Part shown: in pieces, positions 12,776 through 15,640 of the stretch
How the letters are laid out: each line of letters starts with the position of its first letter
Numbering within the stretch: position 1 is the first letter of the stretch
Assembly: GCF_024138145.1 (NCBI RefSeq)
Contig: NZ_CP099997.1
Coordinates: 1,550,001 to 1,614,000 of the forward strand
DNA from: Natronosalvus halobius
GTDB taxonomy: Archaea > Halobacteriota > Halobacteria > Halobacteriales > Natrialbaceae
Reading direction: 5' to 3'
Length of the DNA: 64,000 nucleotides
The notes under the pieces: model-generated
Told to the model about the DNA's origin: nothing
The model's database searches: none
The model's input: only the letters and a program-made list of their open reading frames with translations
Translations under genes and position numbers: made by a program

Positions 12776-13834
12776 ATGGAGTCACAGCCACGCGACGTTC
12801 TCGTTTCACTCCTCGAGACGCCTTCTCCGTCAGGGTACGAAACCCGCGGCCAGCGCGTCTGGATCGACTACGTCTCGCAATTCGCGGACGACGTCCGGAC
12901 TGACGCCTACGGCAACGCGGTCGCCGTCCACGAGGGCGACCCTGGCGGCCCCGAAATCGCCCTGACGGGCCACGCCGACGAGATTGGCTTCATCGTGCGC
13001 TCGATCGACGACGACGGCTTCCTCAACGTCGGCCGCATCGGCGGCAGCGATCCCTCCGTCGCCCGCGGCCAACACGTGACGGTACACGCCGAGGACGGCC
13101 CCGTCGAAGGGGTCGTCGGCCAGACCGCGATCCACCTCCGAGAGGACGACGACGAGCCCGAAATTTCGGACCTCTGGATCGACATCGGTGCCGAGGACGA
13201 AGAGGGCGCAGCCGAGCGCGTCGCCGTCGGCGACCCGATTACGTTCTCCTCGAGCGTCTCCTGGCTCTCCGAGACCCGACTGGCCGCCCGTGGCATGGAC
13301 AACCGCGTCGGCACCTGGATCGCCGCCGAGGCGTTCCGCCGGGCCGTCGAGCACGGGACCGACGCCACCGTCTACGCCGTCTCGACCGTCCAGGAAGAGG
13401 TGGGAACGGAAGGGGCGAAGATGGTCGGCTTCGACCTCGAACCAGACGCCGTGGTCGTCGTCGACGTCGGTCACGCGGTCGACTACCCCTCAGCACCCAG
13501 CGAGAAGACGAGCCAGATGGAGCTGGGCAGCGGGCCGGCGCTCGGCCGCGGCAGCACCAACCACCCGGTGCTCTTCGACGCCCTCCGGACGGTGGCCGCC
13601 GAGGAGGAAATCGACGTCCAGGTCGAGGCTCTCGGCCTCGGAACCGGCACGGACGCCGACAGCTTCTTCACCGCCGCGGGGGCAATTCCCTCCCAGGTCG
13701 TGAGCGTTCCCAACCGGTACATGCACACCCCGGTGGAAGTAGTCGATACCGGGGACCTCGAGGAGATCGCCGATCTCCTGGGATCGTTCGCGAGTTCGGC
13801 CCACGAGTTCGCGCCGTTTTCGGTGGATATCTGA
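12776..13834 (+). CDS. M42-family metallo-aminopeptidase (copy 1)
   Basis: A 352-residue cytosolic dinuclear-zinc aminopeptidase of the M42 (tetrahedral aminopeptidase/glutamyl aminopeptidase) family. Ligand and catalytic motifs are visible: GHADEIGFIVRS, ARGMDNRVGTW, VQEEVGTEGAKM, VVVDVGHA and MHTPVEVV. The beta-barrel insertion domain lies between about 70 and 165. These enzymes form large complexes that trim short peptides released by proteasome or Lon. A second family member is on the minus strand at 20414-21478. The leaderless-type start follows a promoter at about 12746. It converges on a structured noncoding region. Confidence 0.92.
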   Translation: MESQPRDVLVSLLETPSPSGYETRGQRVWIDYVSQFADDVRTDAYGNAVAVHEGDPGGPEIALTGHADEIGFIVRSIDDDGFLNVGRIGGSDPSVARGQHVTVHAEDGPVEGVVGQTAIHLREDDDEPEISDLWIDIGAEDEEGAAERVAVGDPITFSSSVSWLSETRLAARGMDNRVGTWIAAEAFRRAVEHGTDATVYAVSTVQEEVGTEGAKMVGFDLEPDAVVVVDVGHAVDYPSAPSEKTSQMELGSGPALGRGSTNHPVLFDALRTVAAEEEIDVQVEALGLGTGTDADSFFTAAGAIPSQVVSVPNRYMHTPVEVVDTGDLEEIADLLGSFASSAHEFAPFSVDI

Positions 13835-13929
13835 TCGTCGTCGGCGCCTCCAGAGTGACGGTAAGGGGTCCGTCGCTCGCTCGAAAGCCGATCGCAGTAT
13901 ATAAGCAGTGCCGTCGCTTAGCTCGATGT

Positions 13930-14165
13930 GCGTACCTTTAGTCCCCGACCGAGTAGACCCACTTCGGGTGCGATGACCGTTCGGCGAACCCGGGTACGCG
14001 ACAGCTGTTCGGCGGTTCACGCCGCCACGCAGGATGGTGGTTCTATCCACCCGTTCGACGGCATACGCCGTCTCGCAACCGGAGGCGCGTAGCGCCTCCC
14101 GCCCGGCACGAGGGTTAGCCAGCAGACACGGCACGCCGCCAGGGATGATGCTGGACGTTAGTGTT
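13930..14165. ncRNA. Candidate structured RNA or IS remnant: cluster of hairpins
   Basis: The 13835-14217 gap has no credible gene but an unusual density of perfect hairpins: GGCGG/CCGCC, GGTGG-TTCTAT-CCACC, GACGGC-ATAC-GCCGTC and GGAGGCGC-GTA-GCGCCTCC, all within about 14015-14105, plus smaller stems on each side. A near-palindromic TATA (AGTATATAAGC, about 13896) could drive plus-strand transcription starting near 13925; the same element could serve the minus strand. It lacks the conserved RNase P (GAGGAAAGTC) and SRP (GTCAGG...GGAAG) motifs. A relic of an IS200/IS605-type right end is another possibility. The transcribed strand is unknown. Confidence 0.4.
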
Positions 14166-14217
14166 CCGGGTGCCACTCTACTCTACGAGAGGCATTTCAC
14201 TGTCGCGTGCTGATTGG

Positions 14218-15507
14218 CTACCCTGCGACGTCGTCAATCCAAGCAACGAGGTCCGAGACGACGCACTCCGCGACGTTTCCACCGAAGTAGAGGCTCATCG
14301 GATTCGCGGGAGCGAACCCCTCCTGGAAGAAGTGATCGAGCCCCTCGTAGAACTCGACACGGTTCCCGTCCGCGAGGTCTACAGCCCGCCACTTCTCGAA
14401 CTCGTCACGGAACTACACGGCGAGTTCCGGTTGTACCTCCTCGTCGGCTCGACCGGCCTTCAGGACGAAGCACGGGACCTCCAAACTGCTCGCAGTACCC
14501 GCAGGGTCGTAGGCTCCGACGCTGCGGTGCCAGGTCCCCGGCCGTCCCCAGACCGTCTCGTCGTCGTCATAGTCTCTCTCGGCCAGGCGTCGAACCGTCT
14601 CACGTTCGCGCTCGAGTTCGGCCTCCTGACCCTCGCTGAGGTCGCCGTCCGGTTCGAACTCGTAACGCAGGATCGCGAGGTCGTCAGGGTCGAGCGTCGA
14701 GTCGGCCCGCGCATCGAGAGCGACGACGCCCGCAACGCCACCGTGACGAGCGGCGATTCTCGGGGCGCACATCCCGCCCTGGCTGTGCCCCGCTACGAAT
14801 ACGGCGTCTTCGGCTACCTCGTCGGTCGCAGCGAGTTCGTCTATCGCCGCGATTGCGTCGTCGACGACGACGGTGTCGAGCGTGTAGTGCTCGTCCTCGA
14901 CGTCGTGTTCCGCGAGCCGCTTCTCGTACCGGAGCGTCGCGATTCCCTGGCTAGCGAGGCCCCACGCGAGGTCTTTGAGGATCTTCGACGCGCCGTCGGT
15001 TCCGTCCAGGTCGTGGATGCCGGCACCGTGGACGAGCAGAGCGGCCGGGACCGGGCCGGAGCTGTCGGGAACCGCGAGAACGCCCTCGAGGTTCACGCTC
15101 CCGGCCTCGACAGTCACGTTGCGCTCGCTGAATGCGTTCCTGTCGACGTACTCTGGTGCCTCGTACGTGGGGGAGAACGAGAACTCCGTGATGCCGGTGG
15201 CATCGTCGATATCGATGCTCGCCCGTTCGGTGCCGTCCTCGAACTCGAGTGTGACGTTTGCGCCGGTTCCATCCACCTCCACCTCGCCCACACCCTCGAA
15301 ATCGCCGTACTGAGCATAGAGTCCCCGCCAGTACAGTTCGAGCGCATCCACGGCATCAACTGGCTCCTGGAATTCGTCGGGAAACGACTCGACGACCGCC
15401 GCTCGACCGTCCACAGTGAGCAGGTCGGTCGCCCGGGTAAGCGTCCCATCCCCAAACCGTGTAGCGAACGTATGTACCGTATCCTCAGCGTTTCTCGAGG
15501 GAACCAT
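14218..15507 (-). pseudogene. Alpha/beta hydrolase interrupted by an in-frame amber codon
   Basis: A DUF3887-like N-terminal domain (TVHTFATRFGDGTLTRATDL) precedes an alpha/beta-hydrolase of dienelactone-hydrolase type with the nucleophile in VAGHSQGGMCAP and an oxyanion stretch LLVHGAGIHD. Translation stops at TAG (14413-14415) after EEVQPELAV, but the same frame continues for 65 codons (FRDEFEKWRAVDLADG..., GLDHFFQEG, ending WIDDVAG) to a TAG at 14218. That tail supplies the catalytic histidine (GLDHFF), so the truncated form (ending at 14413) should be inactive. A recent nonsense mutation is most likely; stop read-through is an alternative. The start ATG at 15507 is preferred over 15564. 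Confidence 0.85.
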
Positions 15508-15640
15508 CGTGCAAATTGTGTTTGTAGAAGAAAAGATGAATAATTCGATAAGTTCGCGAGTCACTTCTCTGCCTCGAGCGCCGATCCACGACTACAGCGG
15601 GTCCGTTATCCTTTAGCGCCCGCGGGTCAAATCGCTTCCA

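Follow-up and report, generated by a model that had tools for sequence, protein, structure and literature searches.

The hairpin cluster that stands out in this DNA is part of a gene for a ribosomal guide RNA. We put at about 0.95 the probability that a single-copy gene with its own TATA promoter encodes a box H/ACA guide RNA of ~250 nt for U1952, U1954 and U2617 of 23S rRNA, in which a spacer made of hairpins acts as a linker between two guide hairpins, HP1 and HP2. The gene occupies positions 13928-14176 of the window, by which we mean the whole 64,000-nucleotide stretch of Natronosalvus halobius DNA that was analysed; features lie on the plus strand unless stated otherwise. The interval marked by a sequence-only reading of the same DNA, 13930-14165, was nearly exact. 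Our interpretation is based on conservation, structure, sequence boxes, pairing with the target and the presence of cbf5 and nop10 genes, and from these we infer transcription, protein binding, modification and the role of the spacer. On this interpretation the identity of a striking hairpin cluster is settled, as an RNA that guides three pseudouridines in the functional centre of the ribosome.

The gene and its surroundings

A TATA box, AGTATATAAGC, lies at 13896-13906, upstream of the cluster as the sequence-only reading had stated, and would serve as the RNA gene's own promoter, giving rise to one RNA of ~250 nt. Most of the 39 family copies have a T/A-rich TATA-like box at a similar distance from HP1 on its 5′ side, judged by eye and unscored. 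A conserved initiator-like spot, CTTAG at 13918-13922 (CCTAG or CCTAC in relatives), is likely the transcription start, to go by its sequence, and CTA or CTAG precedes HP1 by ~12 nt in most of these copies.

The gene is bordered on one side by an M42 peptidase gene (12776-13834, plus strand) and on the other by an alpha/beta hydrolase gene (14413-15564, minus strand), with gatB further out. The hydrolase open reading frame (14230-15564, minus strand) contains a stop at 14413, giving a product of 383 aa; its relative at locus L003 has 431 aa, and similar coding sequence seems to run on past the in-frame stop. Two open reading frames overlap the RNA gene or its edge, 13490-14176 on the minus strand and 14161-15543 on the plus strand. 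Neither matches a Pfam family, in agreement with the earlier statement that no coding explanation holds, and a coding reading was dropped on these grounds.

The same surroundings bear on a further suggestion made from sequence, that the cluster marks the right end of a lost IS200/IS605-type element with an omega-RNA-like scaffold, considered here as a scaffold for TnpB. The window RNA does resemble an omega-RNA in being a hairpin-rich noncoding RNA in haloarchaea, and RNAs of this type exist in archaea according to the accessible part of PMC12558985. Unlike such an element, however, the window locus has neither a transposon gene nor a repeat: a genome search finds the sequence once, with no further copy, and where a tnpB remnant might have been sought the neighbours are the M42 peptidase, the hydrolase and GatB. 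Together with near-universal occurrence in the class, complementarity to 23S rRNA and an H/ACA anatomy that is complete except for a degenerate ANA box in HP2, these observations leave a transposon origin with next to no probability.

In 8 of the 15 family loci scanned (L054, L055, L058, L060, L061, L063, L064 and L066), the RNA gene and an rRNA operon are convergent, so that the guide gene faces the gene for the rRNA it would target; the scan took in 15 of the 20 larger family loci, all except L068-L072. At these convergent loci the distance to the 5S gene is ~0.16-1.4 kb; at L058 the contig ends after the 5S gene, which is the only rRNA gene visible there. In the window's own genome the two 23S genes, at C1:1193986 and C1:2571890, are far from the RNA gene, which falls within C1:1550001-1614000.

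Two H/ACA hairpins and their distribution

HP1, including its ACA box, spans 13928-14003, as delimited by a match to model R2 (G000:C1:1563928-1564003), by covariation and by its target. Its pocket is formed by a 5′ guide element, GUC (13941-13943), complementary to the GAC that follows the target UA, and by a 3′ guide element, AACCC (13987-13991), complementary to the GGGUU that precedes the target U; each is unchanged in 39/39 family copies, as is the K-turn GAUGA (13972-13976, with its partner GA at 13951-13952), located 6 nt above the pocket. The ACA box (14001-14003), 14 nt from the start of the 3′ guide element, reads ACA in 36 copies and AUA in 3, and an ANA box is in place in all 39.

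HP2 covers 14100-14176 and is supported by the corresponding evidence, a match to model R1 (G000:C1:1564100-1564176), covariation and a target. The 5′ guide element GAGGGUUA (14110-14117) forms eight pairs with UGACCCUC in helix 69 of 23S rRNA; GAGGGUU is present in 39/39 family copies and the whole of GAGGGUUA in 37/39. On the opposite strand, GUUA (14157-14160) serves as 3′ guide element in register A and UAGU, from 14159, in register B, pairing with UAAC and ACUA of 23S rRNA, respectively, and GUUAGUG is found in every one of the 39 copies. The K-turn GAUGA (14144-14148, partner GA at 14125-14126) again sits 6 nt above the pocket (GAUGA in 36 copies, AAUGA in 3). The position of the ANA box, 14173-14175, follows from the family alignment, in which the box is in place in 31 copies and shifted by 1 nt in 5; the remaining 3, from the window's genome and two others of its genus, read CCA. 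In contrast to the ANA boxes of H/ACA RNAs, then, the window's HP2 has a degenerate CCA, which is a departure from the hallmarks of the class and counts against the guide-RNA reading.

Counted on the window sequence, the distance to the ANA box is 14 nt for HP1 and 16 and 14 nt for registers A and B of HP2. These values and the K-turn positions agree with the H/ACA rules given in the accessible part of PMC7991803, namely 14-16 nt from pocket to ANA and a GA/GA K-turn ~5-6 nt above the pocket. As in H/ACA particles already characterised, L7Ae would bind each K-turn, and the stem and the ANA box would be contacted by Cbf5-Nop10-Gar1. In the window's own genome, cbf5 and nop10 score over the cut-off and a Gar1 match falls below the Pfam cut-off.

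The structure itself was assessed in an alignment of 39 copies, taken from loci in the 99 family genomes with a match after identical copies were dropped, with lengths of 150-420 nt. The alignment consists of two highly conserved blocks and a variable middle. In the named structure 99.1% of cells are paired, and double-sided changes occur in 10 of 30 pairs, compared with a shuffle mean of 3.7 (0/500 shuffles reach 10) and with no more than 3 after sliding of the partner strand. The strands of the pockets are nearly invariant and the surrounding stems covary, as expected for a guide; a two-stem hairpin that encloses an internal pocket and covaries is what characterises archaeal box H/ACA RNAs.

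The RNA is present in 8/8 genomes of the genus and 99/101 of the family. A check for conservation across haloarchaeal genomes had been proposed. Among 292 genomes from the class, covariance models of the two blocks recover HP1 in 287 and HP2 in 286, leaving 5 in which they find no HP1 and 6 in which they find no HP2. Across the class there is nearly always one match per genome. Two matches were seen for both hairpins in G250, for HP2 in G276 and for HP1 in G145 and G188, and may represent second guide RNAs. In a phylum-wide draw HP2 was found in 51/196 genomes, 33 from the same order and 18, with weak scores, from the same phylum only. Ten of these 18 out-of-class matches were fetched and 9 viewed in an alignment, alongside one member of the order (G118): all nine retain the ACA box and, in the 5′ guide strand, GAGGG; GUUAG of the 3′ strand is present in 8/9, and GAUGA is altered in 2/9. 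An exact 23-base pattern from the RNA was too strict as a probe, matching only 2 records.

Neither the window as a whole nor the region by itself yielded an Rfam match to the RNA, even at E up to 10, and the RF00064 model, which has no match at the RNA, produced two sub-threshold matches elsewhere in the genome. A guide RNA that is nearly universal in Halobacteria is yet missed by every Rfam model, and alignments such as ours could provide the family model.

Predicted targets in 23S rRNA and relation to known guides

Among the 517 uridines of the genome's own 23S rRNA, the best place for each register is U1952 (8+4 pairs), U1954 (6+4) and U2617 (3+5), the first two for the HP2 pocket and the third for the HP1 pocket; the registers were read from the pocket with the known sites in view, not blind, and the 5′ guide duplex of HP1 amounts to 3 pairs only. 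In the 16S and 5S rRNAs of one family member (L064), no uridine reaches the scores of the three 23S sites. At a constant offset of 4 below, U1952, U1954 and U2617 are Psi1956, Psi1958 and Psi2621 of Haloarcula, which the accessible part of PMC2584109 lists as the three pseudouridines known in its 23S rRNA. In the mechanism we propose, the pocket of HP1 would hold 23S GGGUU-UA-GAC and Cbf5 would isomerise U2617 in the peptidyl-transferase loop, and the pocket of HP2 would accommodate helix 69 in either of two registers, offset by two nucleotides, to direct modification of both U1952 and U1954.

An earlier scan with free registers has been superseded by this fixed-register scan of the genome's own 23S rRNA. 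In the former, the U1952 register shared first place with three more, in each of which the 3′ strand entered the lower stem; the HP1 site escaped notice, as the 23S sequence searched is one base short at that point. Of separate interest, the 23S copy L074 (C1, 1193986-1196907) reads GCTGGTTTAGACC, and L073 and three relatives read GCTGGGTTTAGACC; L074 has one base fewer in the peptidyl-transferase loop, reflecting either an assembly error or a defective operon.

Guides of this kind are known from other archaea. The accessible part of PMC2584109 (Grosjean 2008) predicted, for Haloferax and other halobacteria, a pair of hairpins held apart by a long spacer, the first for position 2621 and the second for 1956 and 1958 by alternative pairing, and described them as homologous to stems II and III of Pf7. 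In PMC4652768, again in its accessible part, the hairpins are named Hvo1 and Hvo2 and, with reference to Blaby 2011, Haloferax is listed as one of the cases confirmed by experiment. As these two papers present it in the parts available, the Haloferax volcanii RNA has the same hairpin order as the window RNA, a long spacer and the targets Psi2621, Psi1956 and Psi1958. The window RNA is thus a new orthologue of Haloferax Hvo1/Hvo2, with HP1 corresponding to Hvo1 and HP2 to Hvo2, in a match based on published order and targets. We take the Haloferax RNA with these two hairpins to be sR-h45. What had been called an undescribed structured RNA is accordingly a structured RNA with its own promoter, and one that no Rfam model finds, but its kind had been described (PMC2584109 and PMC4652768, accessible parts).

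More distant relatives differ in architecture. In Pyrococcus Pf7/Pab40 (HgcG, Rfam RF00064), motifs II and III are homologous to HP1 and HP2, and the third motif has the same 23S site as HP2 (PMC2584109 and PMC4652768, accessible parts). Pf7/Pab40 has three adjacent hairpins, whereas the window RNA has two and a spacer, and is missed by RF00064. The third motif of Archaeoglobus Afu4, likened here by description, is presented in the accessible part of PMC4652768 as a relative of Pab40.3 that directs modification at the position equivalent to Psi1956.

The hairpin spacer

Between the two guide hairpins lies the spacer (14004-14099), the densest part of a hairpin cluster whose reality our folding analysis bears out. 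Its 96 nt adopt a minimum-energy fold with four tightly folded hairpins, with stems of 4+6, 5, 2+6 and 8 pairs, and an energy z of -4.4 against 200 dinucleotide shuffles. The whole of 13925-14165 is only mildly unusual on the plus strand (z = -1.88; 5/200 shuffles as good) and not unusual on the minus strand (z = -1.01). The unusual density therefore sits in the spacer; HP1 and HP2 stand out by conservation and covariation, not by energy.

We compared 59 spacers, which range from 15 to 253 nt and from 1 to 10 hairpins. The 39 from the family (15-137 nt) have a mean folding z of -2.99, with 31/39 below -2, and 36/39 have a helix of 4 or more pairs directly adjoining HP2, where shuffles would give 14.1. 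For 20 copies from other families (24-253 nt), which were hand-picked among the listed matches to the two models for spread of genera and spacer length and so do not give the statistics of a random sample, the mean z is -2.75, with 11/20 below -2, and an abutting helix occurs at HP2 in 15/20 against 6.9 expected; some short spacers among them (L121, L123 and L120) fold no better than chance. Hairpin number grows with spacer length (r = 0.93, range 1 to 10), a relation that is partly trivial. A stem of the form GNYGG/CCRNC, defined after the sequences had been inspected, recurs in 24/39 family and 9/20 other-family spacers, where shuffle means are 0.97 and 0.91, respectively. Spacer sequence is not conserved between genomes.

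This lack of conservation, and the fact that HP1 and HP2 each have their own set of H/ACA elements, would also suit two separate one-hairpin H/ACA RNAs, with the spacer as a mere processing element that is cut out or trimmed after transcription. Against this, the hairpins are adjacent and in the same order in 59/59 copies, and the helix abutting HP2 in 36/39 family spacers (14.1 expected) is as much in keeping with a linker as with a processing site; we consider two separate RNAs unlikely. As part of a single guide RNA, the spacer would be a linker of variable hairpin number that separates two particles and offers no pocket of its own. The accessible parts of PMC2584109 and PMC4652768 mention the spacer only as long and no hairpins in it, and a literature search gave no further relevant account among the titles listed. 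A linker with a variable number of hairpins is apparently undescribed so far, a statement that we regard as provisional. Our tentative proposal is that the linker is a separately evolving module, a hairpin array that keeps its fold while sequence and length change, and that would serve a two-headed H/ACA particle either structurally or as a site for protein binding; the descriptions consulted make no mention of such a part. Should the array have a function, it would illustrate how part of an RNA can evolve through gain and loss of hairpins, and would offer a way into the question of how two H/ACA particles share one RNA.

The most extended array is that of L116 (L116:151-403), a spacer of 253 nt with ten hairpin loops and a z of -11.2. 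TRF resolves it into 4.3 copies of a 51-nt unit, or about five two-hairpin units, and finds no tandem repeat in the window region. This one tandem-repeat spacer, the perfect-palindrome hairpins and the convergent rRNA operon at 8/15 family loci are features that hairpins acting as DNA, in palindromic repeats or as a transcription terminator, might also show. We judge such a role very improbable, since the stretch has no second copy in its own genome, the pockets match 23S rRNA, and changes in HP1 and HP2 also keep G-U pairs, which suits RNA. As regards the spacer of the guide RNA itself, its first hairpin in the window, GGCGGTTCACGCCGCC, is identical letter for letter in L128, from another family, and both descent and convergence could account for the identity.
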